Below the pieces are notes generated by a model. That model had not been told where the DNA came from. It searched no databases and saw only the letters and a list, made by a program, of their open reading frames with translations. From Gemmatimonadota bacterium (lineage in GTDB: Bacteria > Gemmatimonadota > Gemmatimonadetes > Longimicrobiales > Gaopeijiaceae): a DNA stretch of 53,117 nucleotides. The stretch lies in assembly GCA_009838975.1 (NCBI GenBank), contig VXQO01000159.1:1-53117 (forward strand), read 5' to 3'. The stretch's first letter is position 1. Each line of letters begins with the position of its first letter. Shown one piece after another: positions 24,045 to 43,250 of this stretch. The translations under genes and the position numbers were made by a program.

Positions 24045-24649
24045 GAGCAACCCCTCCCGCGGCAATCGCCCAGGACGCGGCCGGATTCTTGCGGCGCATC
24101 GTCATCATCGGATTCATGGGAGCCGGGAAGTCCACGGTGGGATCAGTACTGGCTCGTTGCATCGGATGGGATTTCGTCGATCTGGACGACGAGGTGGCAC
24201 GGCGCGAGGGAATGCCCGTGCATGAGATCATCCGCGAGCGCGGAATAGCGGGCTTCCGGCGTGTAGAGTCGACGGTGGGCCGGGAGCTTCTGCGATGCCG
24301 GGCCACAGTGATTTCCGTCGGTGGGGGCTGGCCGGCGGAATCGGGTCACATGGACATGCTCGACAGCACAACTGTGTCGATCTGGCTCCGAGTAGGCGCA
24401 GAAACGGCGCTGGACAGGATCGCGGGGTCGGACACGGCAAGACCTCTACTGCAGGTCGATGACCCGGTGGGGACGGCGGAAGCTCTGCTCCGAGAGCGGG
24501 TCCCTCACTACCGGCGTGGGAACATCGTCGTGGATACGGAGGACAGGGCGCCGGAAGAGGTGGTCATGGAAATACTGAAGCACATCAGCCCTTCGAAGGA
24601 CACGCCGGTGACCGGGAGGGCAGGATGGAAAGGGAAAGAACGCGAGTGA
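24041..24649 (+). CDS. aroK: Shikimate kinase
   Basis: Phosphorylates shikimate with ATP. GGGAGGG lies 3 nt before the ATG at 24041, which overlaps the aroC stop. Seen: Walker A GFMGAGKSTVG, DLDDEVARREG (Mg and substrate), FRRVESTVGREL, VISVGGGWPA and the lid region SDTARPLLQ. 202 residues, slightly longer than usual because of an 18-residue N-terminal lead and a short basic tail. The stop overlaps the start of topA. Confidence 0.93.
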   Translation: MRATPPAAIAQDAAGFLRRIVIIGFMGAGKSTVGSVLARCIGWDFVDLDDEVARREGMPVHEIIRERGIAGFRRVESTVGRELLRCRATVISVGGGWPAESGHMDMLDSTTVSIWLRVGAETALDRIAGSDTARPLLQVDDPVGTAEALLRERVPHYRRGNIVVDTEDRAPEEVVMEILKHISPSKDTPVTGRAGWKGKERE

Positions 24650-27309
24650 AGCTGGTGATTGTGGAATCGCCTGCCAAGGCGAAAACGATCGGGAGGTTCC
24701 TCGGACCGGAATACCGGGTCGAAGCGTCGTACGGACATATCAGAGACCTTCCCCGTTCTGCCGGCGAGACACCCAAGCGGATTCGCGACAAACCCTGGGG
24801 CCGGCTCGCCGTCGATACCGAGGGCGGCTTCAGGCCCGTCTATATCGTCCCGCGGGAGAGCCAGAAGTACGTACGGGATCTCAAGAAGACCCTCGCCAAG
24901 GCGGACGAAGTCCTCCTGGCGACAGACGAAGATCGTGAGGGTGAGTCGATCAGCTGGCACCTCCTGCAGGTCCTCAAGCCAAAAGTTCCGGTCAAGCGGA
25001 TTGCCTTCCATGAGATAACCCGCGCCGCCATCGATGCCGCGCTTGCAGATCCCCGGGCAGTCGACCAGCGGCTGGTCAAGGCCCAGGAAGCGAGGCGCGT
25101 GCTGGATCGCCTCTACGGGTACACGCTTTCACCGGTCCTCTGGAAAAAGGTGCGGACCAAACTCAGCGCTGGCCGCGTCCAAAGTGTCGCCCTGCGGCTC
25201 ATCGTCGACAGGGAAGAGGAACGCCGCCGATTCAAGGTTTCGGAGTACTGGCGGGTCCGGGCAACGCTCGCAGGCAGCGGCGGAGAGTTCACGGCCACGC
25301 TCGTGAGTGTGGGAGCGAAGCCTGTCGCCACGGGGAAGGACTTCGACTCGTCGACCGGTGAGCCGATTCCTTCTTCCAGGGCGCTTGCCCTCGGAGCGCA
25401 GGCGGCGTCGACCATCGCAGAGGCCGCGCTCGATGCGACACCCTGGTTCGTGGCCGATGTGCAACGCAAGTCCAGCAGGCAGCAACCGGCGCCACCGTTC
25501 ACCACGTCGACGCTCCAACAGGCGGCGAGCAGCCGTCTCAGGATGTCCCCGAAACGCACGATGCTCATCGCGCAGCGCCTGTATGAAGGCGTCGACCTGG
25601 GAGGGGGCGATCGGGAGGGGCTCATCACCTATATGCGCACGGACTCGGTGACGCTGTCCGGCAAGGCACTGGGTGAAGCCGGCCGGTATATCGACCGTGT
25701 GTTCGGGAGCGACTACTACCGGGGACCAAGGCGCTACAGGACCAGGTCGAAGGTCGCGCAGGAGGCGCACGAGGGCATCCGCCCCACGGAGATCGGACGA
25801 ACCCCTGGAAGCCTCGCGAGATTCCTCGGGAAGGACGAGTTGGCACTATACCGGTTGATCTGGGACCGTACCGTAGCATCCCAGATGGCTGATGCCGAGG
25901 TCGATCGGACCAGGGTGGACCTTTTGGCCCGCATGGAGGGGACCGACCACACCTTCCGTGCCAGCGGATCGGTGCTTCGCTTCCCCGGCTTTCTCAAAGT
26001 GTATGGTGACAAGCGAAAGGATCAGCTCCTGCCGCGCCTTGAGGTCGGCGACAGGATCCACGCCGAGACGGATTCGGAGTCGCACTCGGCGGACACGCCG
26101 GAGCCGGAAGGAGTACCCGTGGTCGTGCGTGCAGTCGAGCCGGAACGGCGGGAAACCAGGCCCCCTCCACGCTATTCGGAGGCGTCGCTCGTCAGAAAGC
26201 TGGAAGAGGAAGGCATCGGAAGGCCTTCGACCTACACGCCTACGATCACAACCATCCAGGACCGCGACTATGTGCGCAAGCGCAGTGGTTCCCTGGTCCC
26301 GACCTACACGGGAATGGCGGTCAATCAGTTGTTGAAGGAGCATTTCCAGCAGTATGTGGACGTCGGCTTCACGGCGCGCATGGAAGATGCCCTCGACGAC
26401 ATTGCCGCTGGCGAGGCGGATGCGCGTGGCTTTCTGGAGGCCTTCTACCGTGGCGAAGGCGATGATCCCGGCCTCGCACGCAAGATCGAAGAGACCCTGC
26501 CCGCGATCGACTATCCCGCGATTCCGATCGGTGTCGATCCCCATACCGGCCAGTCGATCCGGATCAGGATCGGCAGGAACTCGGCCTATGCCGAGCGCCA
26601 GGGCGGAGGAACGGTAAGGCGGGCGACAATACCCGATGACCTGCTCATCGACGAACTCACGGTGGACCGGGCGACGGAGTTGCTCGAAGCACCGGCCGGC
26701 TCCGCGGAACCTATCGGAACGGATCCCGACACGGGTTCACCGGTATACGTCAAGGTCGGTCGCTACGGACCGTACGTGCAGCTGGGAGAGTCCCGCGGAT
26801 CGACAAAGCCGCATTGGGTCGGACTACCCGGGGGAGTGGAGCCGTCGGACGTGACCCTGGAGTATGCGTTGCGGCTACTCTCCCTGCCGCGGTTGTTGGG
26901 CAGGGATCCATCCAGCGGCGAGGAAGTCAGAGCCGGTCTCGGACGGTACGGTCCCTACGTCCAGAGGGCGCGGGAGTACCGTAGCCTCGAGTCCCTGGAG
27001 CAGGCCTTCGAGATTGGCTTGGACGAGGCCCTTGCGCTTCTGGCGCGTGAAAAGACCGGCAGGCGGCGGACGAGGCGGGTGCTCAAATCCGTGGGCACAC
27101 ATCCGGAGACAGGTTCCCCGATCGAACTGCTCGAAGGACGCTACGGCCCCTATGTGACCGACGGCAGCGTCAACGCCAGCATCCCGAAGGGCAGGGACCC
27201 TCTCACCACATCGCTCGAAGAGGCGATGGAACTGCTTGCGGGTGCCAGCGCTCGCAGGAAGCAACGCCGCCCGCGCGCGCGGGGCGGGTCCAGGGCACGG
27301 CGGGCTTGA
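24646..27309 (+). CDS. topA: DNA topoisomerase I (type IA)
   Basis: Relaxes negative supercoils. The GTG at 24646 overlaps the aroK stop and gives the usual N-terminus (M)KLVIVESPAKAKTI; an in-frame ATG at 24625 with GGGAGGG upstream is the alternative. Seen: Toprim domain with LLATDEDREGESISWHL, the active-site Tyr in GLITYMRTDSV (Tyr329), and KLSAGRVQSVALRLIVDRE. The C-terminus has no Cys4 zinc fingers; instead there are about four Toprim-C repeats, each with DP.TG and GRYGPYV (IGTDPDTGSPVYVKVGRYG, LGRDPSSGEEVRAGLGRYG, VGTHPETGSPIELLEGRYG). 887 residues. Confidence 0.95.
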   Translation: MKLVIVESPAKAKTIGRFLGPEYRVEASYGHIRDLPRSAGETPKRIRDKPWGRLAVDTEGGFRPVYIVPRESQKYVRDLKKTLAKADEVLLATDEDREGESISWHLLQVLKPKVPVKRIAFHEITRAAIDAALADPRAVDQRLVKAQEARRVLDRLYGYTLSPVLWKKVRTKLSAGRVQSVALRLIVDREEERRRFKVSEYWRVRATLAGSGGEFTATLVSVGAKPVATGKDFDSSTGEPIPSSRALALGAQAASTIAEAALDATPWFVADVQRKSSRQQPAPPFTTSTLQQAASSRLRMSPKRTMLIAQRLYEGVDLGGGDREGLITYMRTDSVTLSGKALGEAGRYIDRVFGSDYYRGPRRYRTRSKVAQEAHEGIRPTEIGRTPGSLARFLGKDELALYRLIWDRTVASQMADAEVDRTRVDLLARMEGTDHTFRASGSVLRFPGFLKVYGDKRKDQLLPRLEVGDRIHAETDSESHSADTPEPEGVPVVVRAVEPERRETRPPPRYSEASLVRKLEEEGIGRPSTYTPTITTIQDRDYVRKRSGSLVPTYTGMAVNQLLKEHFQQYVDVGFTARMEDALDDIAAGEADARGFLEAFYRGEGDDPGLARKIEETLPAIDYPAIPIGVDPHTGQSIRIRIGRNSAYAERQGGGTVRRATIPDDLLIDELTVDRATELLEAPAGSAEPIGTDPDTGSPVYVKVGRYGPYVQLGESRGSTKPHWVGLPGGVEPSDVTLEYALRLLSLPRLLGRDPSSGEEVRAGLGRYGPYVQRAREYRSLESLEQAFEIGLDEALALLAREKTGRRRTRRVLKSVGTHPETGSPIELLEGRYGPYVTDGSVNASIPKGRDPLTTSLEEAMELLAGASARRKQRRPRARGGSRARRA

Positions 27310-27345
27310 GTTGCGGACAAGTGACCGGCGTGACCGTCGCAGGCG

Positions 27346-27505
27346 GCGTCCGATGAGCTCGAGCCGGGTGCGGGTCGAACCGCTGGCTGACGCGCCAGGC
27401 AGGAAGGCCGAGGGTCGCGATGCGCTTGCAGCACGTGCTGACCGTTTCCTGAGGCGGTGGATTGCAGATTACAGCGTCCTCCCAACCAGGAACATGGCCA
27501 TATGA
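27346..27505 (+). pseudogene. Probable C-terminal remnant of trmFO
   Basis: Between topA and xerC a frame reads PMSSSRVRVEPL, then GRKAEGRDALAARADRFLRR and WIADY, and ends at a TGA overlapping the xerC ATG. This resembles the tail of TrmFO, the folate/FAD-dependent tRNA m5U54 methyltransferase, which ends PMN.NFGL...L followed by K.ER......RA...L..W. The position is also right: topA-trmFO-xerC-hslV-hslU is the order known from Bacillus subtilis and others. Only about 40 codons match; the 400 upstream residues are missing and topA ends at 27309. An independent 50-residue ORF (ATG 27352) is the alternative. The identification is inference from motif and position. Confidence 0.5.
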
Positions 27506-28407
27506 CAAACCAGGTCGCGTCGTTCCTCGACCATCTCGAACTGGTCCGCAATCTCTCGCAAAGGACCATCGCGGCCTATCGGCGTGATCTCTGCGACCTG
27601 GAAGAGTTCATCGGTGTTCATTTCGGCCGAAACAACTTTCGGTGGCAAGAGGTGGACCGGAGCGTCGTCAGGGCGTTCCTGGGCGAATCGGGCCGCCGCG
27701 GTCTCGCACCCAGCACGATCGCGCGCAAGCTGTCCGCGATCCGGGCTTTCTTCCAGTACCTCCACCGGCAGGGCGAAGTATCCACGAACCCCGCCCGGCG
27801 AGTCCGTGGTCCCAGGCGCGACCGGACCCTTCCGGGCCACATGCGAGTTGACGAAATGGAGGAACTCTTTCGCTGGACGGCGTCGCAGGCGGCCCAGCGC
27901 AACGACCTCACCATGACCCGTCTGCTTGCAGCCCTGGAGCTGTTCTACGGGAGTGGCCTTCGCCTCGCCGAACTGGGCTCGCTGAACGTGGCTTCCATGG
28001 ACCTTGACCGGCTGCAACTGCGTGTTCTGGGCAAGGGAAGGAAGGAGCGGATCGTACCCATCACCGACTCGGCCGCAAAGGCGGTTCGCAACTACCTGCC
28101 CCGGCGTGCGGAGGTGGTGGCCTCGGGCTGCGAGGCGCTCTTCGTGGGCCGTCACGGAAACCGGCTCTCCAATCGGTACATCCAGCACACGGTCCAGGCG
28201 GCGATCACCCGCTATGCCTCGGCAGCCAACCTGTCCGTACACTCGCTCCGTCACACCTTTGCCACTCACCTCCTCGATGCGGGGGCGGACCTGATGGCCG
28301 TCAAGGAACTCCTCGGCCACGCGTCGCTCGGCACCACGCAGATCTATGCCCATACCTCGAAGGAGAGGTTGCGCAGGGCATACCTGGGCGCCCACCCGAG
28401 AGCCTAG
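27502..28407 (+). CDS. xerC: Tyrosine recombinase XerC/XerD
   Basis: Site-specific recombinase that resolves chromosome dimers at dif. 301 residues from ATG 27502. N-terminal SAM-like domain ([26 protein letters not shown]) and complete catalytic set: Arg154 (GSGLRLAEL), Lys178 (GKGRKER), His247 and Arg250 ([12 protein letters not shown]), His273 ([10 protein letters not shown]) and Tyr282 (IYAH). Chromosomal context with topA and hslVU points to the housekeeping Xer rather than a phage or integron integrase. No dif-like site was identified. Confidence 0.92.
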
Positions 28408-28504
28408 CACTTCCGGGCCTCCAACCCCCTACCGGGGGCAATCCCACGCCTCTACCTTTAAGATCTTGACCATCGTCCGCCCCCGTGTGCGGGCCTATCC
28501 CAAC

Positions 28505-29104
28505 ATGGATTCCAGATCTCCCTCCCGCATGCGGATACGTCCTGCCGCGTCCATTCACCCCGGCGTCCCCGTGCACGCAACCACCGTAATCGCCGTCGCC
28601 CGCGACGGCCGGGTGGCGATGGCGGGCGACGGTCAGGTAACGATGGGCGACGCCGTCGTCAAGGGAGCCGCGCGAAAGGTGCGGCAGCTCGCGGACGGGA
28701 GGATTCTCGCCGGCTTCGCAGGTGCGGTAGCGGATGCGTTCACCCTTTTCTCCCTGCTTGAAAGCAAGCTGGAGCGATGGCCCTCCAACCTCTCCCGCGC
28801 CTGCGTGGAACTGGCGAAGGAGTGGCGGACCGATCGCTATCTGCGCCGTCTCGAAGCGCTGCTTGTGGTGGCGGACCGGAGCCACCTCTTTCTCGTGGGC
28901 GGCGACGGCAACGTCATTGAGCCCGACCAGCCGATCCTCGCCATCGGTTCCGGCGGAGCCTATGCGCTCGCGGCAGCCCGGGCGCTCTACGAGCGCTCCG
29001 ATCTGAACGCGCCGGACATCGCCCGACGGAGCCTCGAGATCGCCGCCGACATCTGTGTCTATACCAACCGGGAAATCACCTTGCTGGAGCTGGACCCCGA
29101 ATGA
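28505..29104 (+). CDS. hslV: ATP-dependent protease peptidase subunit HslV
   Basis: Proteasome-like threonine peptidase that docks on HslU. The conserved core begins [23 protein letters not shown]; the first Thr of this run is the expected catalytic N-terminal nucleophile. From ATG 28505 that Thr is residue 26, so a 25-residue propeptide would have to be removed; a GTG at 28571 would leave only three residues before it. Seen also: [42 protein letters not shown] and [10 protein letters not shown]. Its stop overlaps the hslU start, consistent with coupled synthesis of the complex. Confidence 0.92.
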
Positions 29105-30648
29105 CTTCCGCGACCTCCTCGACGGGGCTGCCCGCTACAACCGAGCCGCCCGAAGCCGATTTCCGCGAAGATCCGCCCCACTGGCTCGACCAGTTCACAC
29201 CACGTGAGGTCGTCGCCGAGCTGGACAAGTACATCGTGGGCCAGTCCGAGGCGAAGAAGGCGGTTGCGATTGCGCTGCGGAACCGCTGGCGCCGTCAGCA
29301 GGTGGACGACGAACTTCGAGACGAGATACTGCCCAACAATCTCATCATGATCGGACCCACAGGGGTGGGCAAGACCGAAATCGCACGCCGCCTCGCTCGT
29401 CTCGCAGGGTCTCCGTTCATCAAGGTGGAAGCTTCGAAGTTCACGGAGGTCGGCTACGTCGGACGGGATGTCGAGTCGATGGTCCGCGACTTGGTCGACA
29501 CGGCGGTGGCGATGGTTCGGACGGCGCGCGAAGACGAGGTGGAGGACGAAGCCGAACGGCGAACCGAAGAGCGTCTCCTTGATCTGCTGCTTCCGGAACC
29601 CCCGCGGGCGGCTCCGAAGCCTTCCGCCCCGGACAGCGACGGAGAAAGCGCGGCGCCGACGCAGGTCGATCCCGGAGCGAGGCTGTTCGTTGCAGGTCCC
29701 CGGGGTGTCACGGGGCAGAACGAGACGACCCGCGCCGAAGCCGACCCGGCGGTTGCGGAACGCCGCAAGCGCACGCGTGAAAAGCTGCGCAAGCTCCTGC
29801 GGGACGGGCACCTGGAGGACCGGAGCGTGGAGCTCAACGTCCAGCAGGGCGCACCGGTCAGCGGCATGATGTTGCCGATGGGGGGAATGGACGGCATGGA
29901 CCTCAACTTCACCGAGATGCTCCAGGACCTCCTGCCGAAGCGTTCGAAGCAGCGCACCGTGACCGTGTCCGAGGCGAGGCGCATTCTGCTCCAGGAGGAA
30001 CTCGATCGCCTTGTGGACATGGACGAGGTGGTCAACGAGGCGCTGGACCGCGCCGAGGAGCTCGGGATCATCTTCCTCGACGAGCTCGACAAGGTGGCGG
30101 GTGGACGGGGAGGCGCCGGCCCCGACGTCAGCCGCGAGGGCGTTCAGCGCGACCTGCTGCCCATCGTGGAAGGGTGCAACGTCCAGACCAAGTACGGCTT
30201 CGTGCGCACCGACCACATGCTCTTCATCGCGGCCGGCGCCTTTCACGTCGCGAAACCGACCGACCTCATACCCGAACTCCAGGGGCGCTTCCCCATCAGG
30301 GTGGAGCTGAACAGCCTCAACGCGCCGGAGTTCGAGCGCATCCTGCGGGAGCCGCGCAATGCCCTGGTGAGGCAGTACCAGGCCCTGGTCGAGGCCGATG
30401 GGGCGTCGGTGGATTTCACCGACTGCGGCATCAGCGAAATCGCGCGGATCGCCGCCGACCTGAACAACCGCATGGAGAACATCGGTGCGCGCAGACTCCG
30501 AACCGTGCTGACCACCCTGTTGGAAGAACTCCTCTTCGATCTCCCGGACGAGGGCCGCGGCGAGACCCTGGTCGTGACCGGCGACTTCGTGCGCGAGAAG
30601 CTCGAAAAGATCGTCTCGGACGACGACCTGAGCCGCTACATCCTCTGA
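29101..30648 (+). CDS. hslU: HslU, ATPase subunit of HslUV protease
   Basis: AAA+ unfoldase partner of HslV. Seen: [25 protein letters not shown], Walker A GPTGVGKT (85-92), the pore loop region [13 protein letters not shown], Walker [14 protein letters not shown], and the sensor/arginine region with GRFPIRVEL. The C-terminus [10 protein letters not shown] matches the tail that inserts into HslV. At 515 residues it is longer than the usual 440-460: a Pro/Ala/Asp-rich stretch (about 160-215) extends the intermediate domain, and an 18-residue Thr/Ser-rich lead precedes the core. Confidence 0.95.
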
Positions 30649-41658: not shown

Positions 41659-43215
41659 CTACCTGGGGACCCGGATGTTGTACAGCGTCGGCGCCATGTT
41701 CCGGCCGGGGTCGGTGCTGGGGCAGGCAGCGACGACCGAGACGACCTCTCCGGGTGCCACATCCTCGAGGACATCACTCACATCATCCTCGCTCTGAATC
41801 TCCCGGCGCTCGATCTCGGTGATCACGCATGTGCGGACGATGCCGCGATTGTACGCGGGGCCGTTGGGCTGGACCTCGGCGACCACCACCCCGTCGGTGC
41901 TCTCCAACTGAAGCTGCCGGGCGATTTCAGGCGTCACATCCACCAGGTCGACGATACCGATCCTGTCGGCGGCACGGGGCTGCCGAGAGGGCGCTTCCGC
42001 CACCTCCCCGGAATATGGCATTTCCTCCAGCCGCACTGTCACTTCGCGCGGCCTGCCGTCCCGATAGATGGCGATGCGCACCTGGTCGCCAGGCGACTTC
42101 AGCGCAATCTTGTGTTGGAGGTCGTTGCCCGTGAGCACCTTTTCGCCATCGACCTCCCTGATCACGTCACGGAATCGCAATCCCGCCCGCTCAGCCGGCG
42201 TGCCCGGGTTCACACCCTGGACCAGTGCCCCGCTAACATCGGGAAGCCCCATCGCTTCGGCGTCCTCGGCGCTCACCGCCCAGATCGATACCCCCAGAAA
42301 AGCTCGCTTCACCCTTCCGTACGCGATCAGGTCGTCCATGACACGGTGGGCCAGGTCGATCGGAACGGCGAACCCGTATCCCTGGTAGACGCCCGTGGCA
42401 CTCACGATCGCCGCATTGATGCCGATCACCTGACCCTGCAGGTTGACCATGGGCCCTCCGGAGTTGCCCTGGTTGATCACAGCGTCCGTCTGGATGAAGT
42501 CTTCGATCGCCAGGGCGGAGTTGCCCGAGTAATCGGGATCTTCCTCAAGCGACCGGTTGATCAGCCTGAGCGACCGGCCCTTGGCCGATACGATTCCCGC
42601 CGTCACCGTGTAGTCCAGGTTGGCGCCCGCGCGGCCGAAGCCCGGGTTGCCGATGGCCAGCACCCACTCGCCCACGCGGACCTCCGCGGAGGACCCGAGC
42701 GAAGCCACGGGGAGATCCGTTCCGTCGATCTTGATGACGGCGATGTCGGTCGTCGGGTCCGTGCCGACCACTTGCGCTCCGAACTCGCGCCCGTCGAGGA
42801 GGGTTACGTCGATCTGCTGCGCGTCCTCCACCACGTGGTTGTTGGTCAGGATGTATCCGTCGTCCGAGATCACGAAGCCGCTGCCGCTGCCGGGGGCGAT
42901 GTCGGGAACGTCGCGGGGCGGCACCCCGAAGAGCCGTTCCCAGCCGCGGAGTTCGCTGCTCCGGCGAACCTGCTGGCGCGTGGTCACGATGCGCACGACG
43001 GCGGGCGTGACCGCGTCGGCAACGTTCACGAAAGCTTGACTCAGATCGAGTGCGGGCTGCACTTCGGCCTGGGAGACCACCGGAGCGGTCTGCACCGGCG
43101 GCGGGGTGAAGGGTCTGTCCGTGAAGCCGAACTGGGAAGCGATGCCCAGCCCGACAAGAAAGGAGGCCGCAACGGATAGCGCGACCTTCGTCTTGGCCCT
43201 GAGTGGATCGTACAT
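41659..43215 (-). CDS. degP: Periplasmic serine protease DegP/HtrA
   Basis: Envelope protease/chaperone. ATG at 43215 gives 518 residues starting MYDPLRAKTK, with one N-terminal hydrophobic segment (VALSVAASFLVGLGIASQ), probably an uncleaved anchor or signal. Catalytic triad His127 (LTNNHVVED), Asp157 (DPTTDIAVIK), Ser252 (NQGNSGGPM). Two PDZ domains follow, the first with FLGVSIWAVS and GALVQGVNPGTPAERAG, the second degenerate with GVVVAEVQPNGPAYNRG. The frame is open to 43245. It is separated from dnaK by a hairpin and carries an 11-bp palindrome upstream. Confidence 0.93.
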   Translation of the reverse strand: MYDPLRAKTKVALSVAASFLVGLGIASQFGFTDRPFTPPPVQTAPVVSQAEVQPALDLSQAFVNVADAVTPAVVRIVTTRQQVRRSSELRGWERLFGVPPRDVPDIAPGSGSGFVISDDGYILTNNHVVEDAQQIDVTLLDGREFGAQVVGTDPTTDIAVIKIDGTDLPVASLGSSAEVRVGEWVLAIGNPGFGRAGANLDYTVTAGIVSAKGRSLRLINRSLEEDPDYSGNSALAIEDFIQTDAVINQGNSGGPMVNLQGQVIGINAAIVSATGVYQGYGFAVPIDLAHRVMDDLIAYGRVKRAFLGVSIWAVSAEDAEAMGLPDVSGALVQGVNPGTPAERAGLRFRDVIREVDGEKVLTGNDLQHKIALKSPGDQVRIAIYRDGRPREVTVRLEEMPYSGEVAEAPSRQPRAADRIGIVDLVDVTPEIARQLQLESTDGVVVAEVQPNGPAYNRGIVRTCVITEIERREIQSEDDVSDVLEDVAPGEVVSVVAACPSTDPGRNMAPTLYNIRVPR

Positions 43216-43239
43216 CGTATCTCTCACCGGTTGAAAGTA

Positions 43240-43250
43240 CACCATTGGTG
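43240..43250. promoter_or_regulatory. 11-bp perfect palindrome upstream of degP
   Basis: CACCA-T-TGGTG, about 25 bp before the degP ATG and overlapping the presumed leader. It could be a small operator; no known regulator is assigned, and a match of this length may be chance. Confidence 0.3.

Follow-up and report, generated by a model that had tools for sequence, protein, structure and literature searches.

We identified the stretch between topA and xerC in this Gemmatimonadota genome as the scar of a deleted trmFO gene, a reading to which we give a probability of about 95%. It holds that a single internal deletion in an ancestor left both ends of the gene and abolished the enzyme, that the tRNA most likely lacks m5U54, and that the 3' end would have been kept for xerC while the rest would be decaying neutrally. 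TrmFO (TIGR00137) is the folate/FAD-dependent tRNA uracil-54 C5-methyltransferase, and m5U54 is the near-universal "T" of the T-loop. The locus qualifies as a pseudogene: 16 loci of the genus hold an intact orthologue at this position, and a disabling out-of-frame deletion is seen in three genomes. The window, i.e. the whole stretch of DNA analysed (53,117 nt, contig VXQO01000159.1), belongs to a 4.5-Mb assembly that is 96% complete (G000); many of its nearest Gemmatimonadota MAG relatives carry isolate names that we take to be sponge-survey labels.

The scar is bordered on the left by topA (24625-27309; like all features below, on the + strand unless stated otherwise), a type I DNA topoisomerase gene matching TIGR01051 above its cut-off with 731 bits, and on the right by xerC (27502-28407), whose best-scoring family is TIGR02224 (E 1.6e-93). 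We set the xerC start at 27502 and not at the upstream GTG at 27457, following the homologous start in relatives. Next come hslV (28346-29104; proteasome family PF00227) and hslU (29101-30648), the latter assigned from its translation and position rather than by a profile scan. The frame at 27350-27505 (PM-S-S...WIADY...MAI*) corresponds to the last ~51 codons of trmFO. Scans of the 64-aa frame against the general NCBIfam and Pfam libraries returned no TrmFO match; general profiles cannot resolve so short a frame, and 16 intact TrmFO C-termini were therefore assembled into a profile specific to the genus. With this profile the window frame scored E 1.2e-14, its counterparts in two sister genomes 1e-16 (G013) and 6e-18 (G015), and the next-best frame in the searched set 0.09; in bits, the window frame reached 52.0 versus a maximum of 13.7 among 20,000 shuffles. 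The segment PMNxNWGLV[DE]P and the tail before xerC are thus present as a decayed homologue from which WGL is lost: the sisters retain PMNSN, which has become PMSSS in the window. WGL is invariant in 16/16 intact loci and has become RVR in all three scars, which indicates that the peptide is no longer under selection for TrmFO function. That a GC-rich intergenic frame merely mimics the end of TrmFO, as the silence of the general libraries might be taken to mean, is refuted by the profile score that none of the shuffles approached, by the still closer frames of the sisters and by the trmFO N-terminus found at the same locus.

This N-terminus had been missed by the first-pass annotation, which correctly recognised the C-terminal piece but took the remnant to be a 3' end only. 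Directly after topA, at 27321-27347, the sequence GTG ACC GGC GTG ACC GTC GCA GGC GGC encodes VTGVTVAGG, the GTG start and codons 1-9 of trmFO with the N-terminal FAD-binding strand. It aligns with MSQVTVAGGG of G005 and MSHVTVAGGG of G009, the closest relatives in which the gene is intact, and shares with them the A of VTVAGG, a mark of this pair, as other relatives mostly have VTVVGGG. A remnant of nine residues is beyond the power of an N-terminal profile of 12-20 residues, and six-frame motif counting was used instead: among the 106,230 codons read in six frames across the window, VTVAGG has a single occurrence, the one within 27321-27347. The full FAD-binding motif VTVxGGGLAG was not found in the scar, where the frame reaches a stop after VTVAGG, and the catalytic cysteines and folate site are gone with the middle of the protein (about residues 10-391). 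From the GTG at 27321 to the TGA ending at 27505 the scar measures 185 nt, compared to 1,329 nt for the intact gene in G005 and G009. By this length difference ~1,144 nt are missing, that is about 86% of the gene rather than the "about 90%" estimated earlier. This is no multiple of three, and the reading frame does indeed change from the 5' piece to the 3' piece. Given that both gene ends are present, the locus represents one internal, out-of-frame deletion, whose junction can be placed to within a few bases at 27348-27349. The junction itself created a mini-frame of 11 codons (27321-27356), whose TGA overlaps the ATG at 27353 (ATGA, 27353-27356) of a 50-aa frame lying inside the 3' piece; the arrangement is identical in G013 and G015.

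The ancestral state is well documented within the genus (g1). A trmFO match is present in 19 of its 23 genomes, 18 of them above the family cut-off, and all 16 intact loci that were read have the order topA, trmFO, xerC and carry PMNSNWGLV[DE]P or a close variant in the TrmFO C-terminus. Close relatives therefore did carry trmFO at this site, and the conserved slot between topA and xerC proposed in the first-pass annotation is borne out, with hslV and hslU following xerC in the window. The stop of trmFO overlaps the start of xerC by ATGA or GTGA in every intact locus (GTGA in G002 and G021), and the window likewise retains ATGA at 27502-27505, the TGA of trmFO lying over the xerC ATG, as already noted at first reading. 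The same scar is found in two other MAGs, G013 and G015, whose topA is 96-99% and XerC 97-99% identical to those of the window; in the XerC tree the three genomes are grouped with high support. Being common to three genomes, the scar is not an artefact of assembly and must be older than their divergence. The deletion therefore arose once, in the ancestor of these three species. One later change is private to the window: its topA stops 15 nt (five codons) upstream of the stop in G013 and G015 (...AGVADK*), through a two-base difference from the sisters (CG to TT) that makes a TGA at 27307-27309. This early stop undoes the GTGA overlap with the trmFO start (27300-27324) that both sisters have kept.

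No trmFO was detected elsewhere in any of the three scar genomes by the family search. In G000 no full-length TIGR00137 match exceeded the curated cut-off of 428.65 bits, and the only match, at 50.7 bits, is MnmG, which is full length and lies well above its own cut-off. As the G000 assembly is 96% complete, a relocated copy keeps a small probability, although all three assemblies would need to have missed it. In the family as a whole, 20 of the 121 genomes lack a trmFO match. All 11 genomes of genus g12 are among them; some of the others are incomplete assemblies. The losses in the scar clade and in g12 look separate, making at least two. In g12 (G033 and G059-G068), the gap between topA and xerC of G033 is only about 100 bases and no remnant is visible. 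Within g1 itself, G008 (locus L064) has also lost trmFO; its gap between topA and xerC holds a faint resemblance to a 5' end (ATVVGCG), and a TGA there overlaps the ATG of xerC. This is perhaps a second deletion with a different end point. Neither G008 nor G033 yielded a 3' remnant with the genus C-terminal profile, and the XerC tree does not resolve the branching order among the scar clade, G005/G009 and G008.

What does the loss mean for the tRNA? The first-pass annotation had considered either loss of m5U54 formation by this enzyme or its replacement. The gene is indeed lost; a replacement of the TrmA type was not found, as TIGR02143 had no match in G000 and the TrmA/RlmD family (PF05958) had none in the 23 genomes of the genus, a search that a very divergent member could escape. 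PF05958 was matched in 31 of 59 searched genomes, all 31 outside the genus. With trmFO gone and a replacement of known type absent, m5U54 is most likely missing from the tRNA of the scar clade. Alternatively, the modification could still be made by an unrecognised enzyme that took over from TrmFO. TruB is retained in G000, as is MnmG, and U54-U55 is kept in 30/30 tRNAs readable at that position, with a T-loop of GTTCR. Nonetheless, U54 is to our knowledge conserved for structural reasons in essentially all tRNAs, so its retention says little about m5U54. Moreover, Mollicutes without TrmFO and TrmA have been shown to lack the modification: it was absent when measured both in M. capricolum, which has no TrmFO, and in Spiroplasma citri, which has a trmFO pseudogene (PMC7226160). 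Together with the failure to find the TrmA/RlmD family in the genus, this makes an unrecognised enzyme very unlikely, and we infer that m5U54 has been lost. As PF05958 is absent from the whole genus and present in many related genera, m5U in 23S rRNA is probably missing as well, judging from gene content.

A further question regards why the 3' end of the gene remains. Across the three genomes the scar has accumulated 15 changes in 181 sites; four intergenic stretches on these contigs predict 11.3, and fourfold sites predict 23.7. On the G013 branch alone the scar is slower than fourfold sites predict (3 changes versus 14.5), but the intergenic comparison is preferred, as individual genes evolve at very different rates here, apparently owing to recombination. 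The hslV interval in this count began out of frame, so that its zero is not a fourfold-site count; the intergenic comparison is unaffected. The scar as a whole fits an intergenic-like rate, with no sign of constraint by that comparison. A minus-strand gene at 41659-43245 carries 95 changes in 310 fourfold sites on the G013 branch versus 0 on one of the remaining branches and 4 on the other, which looks like an import by recombination. The 50-aa frame is free of stops and indels in all three genomes, and 6 of its 12 variable sites are synonymous. Such a proportion would also be expected under weak coding constraint, and 12 sites are too few to decide.

A scenario compatible with these data would begin with a normal trmFO between topA and xerC in the common ancestor of the three species. 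A single internal deletion would then have taken out ~1.14 kb and joined codons 1-9 out of frame to the last ~51 codons, and the 3' end would have stayed because the start of xerC and its probable ribosome site lie inside it, leaving the remainder to decay neutrally. The candidate site, AGGAAC at 27488-27493 within the final trmFO codons, was recognised by reading the sequence and is unchanged across the three scar genomes. We infer that a deletion extending into this region would have come at the expense of xerC expression. The earlier suggestion that the remnant is kept because xerC translation depends on it is thus only partly sustained: the xerC start and its probable ribosome site would explain the 3' end, while selection on the frame itself is not supported. 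A stronger version of that suggestion is a translation relay, in which ribosomes would pass from topA through the 11-codon frame and the 50-aa frame to xerC, so that the leftovers of a dead gene would be retained for coupling. In its favour, the overlaps form an unbroken chain in G013 and G015: a GTGA links the end of topA to the GTG start of the mini-frame, and an ATGA each links the mini-frame to the 50-aa frame and the latter to xerC. All three scars, moreover, remain open. However, the earlier topA stop has broken the first link in the window, the scar changes as intergenic DNA does, and in G008 and G033 xerC still adjoins topA although the profile picks up no 3' remnant there. We therefore regard the relay as unlikely, and favour a scar that is probably decaying neutrally and whose 3' end would be spared for xerC.

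Here a widespread enzyme of tRNA modification has been lost with both breakpoints still visible, within one genus of ordinary genome size. Intact and broken trmFO alleles can be compared among near relatives, as in a natural knock-out series, and the bacteria bearing the scar would offer natural test cases for the role of m5U54. The locus resembles a TrmFO gene in its position, in both of its ends and in the 4-base overlap with xerC; unlike one, it lacks about 86% of the coding sequence and has an out-of-frame junction, and the enzyme cannot be made. The trmFO scar dates the loss well, but the event is of an ordinary kind: other members of the family have lost the gene too, and losses accompanied by pseudogenes are already documented in Mollicutes (PMC7226160). 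The closest parallel is the trmFO pseudogene of Spiroplasma citri, since in Mollicutes, too, the gene has been broken or lost in the absence of TrmA, and m5U54 was measured there as absent (PMC7226160). In contrast to the reduced genomes of that group, the scar described here sits in a 4.5-Mb Gemmatimonadota genome and is a dated internal deletion.
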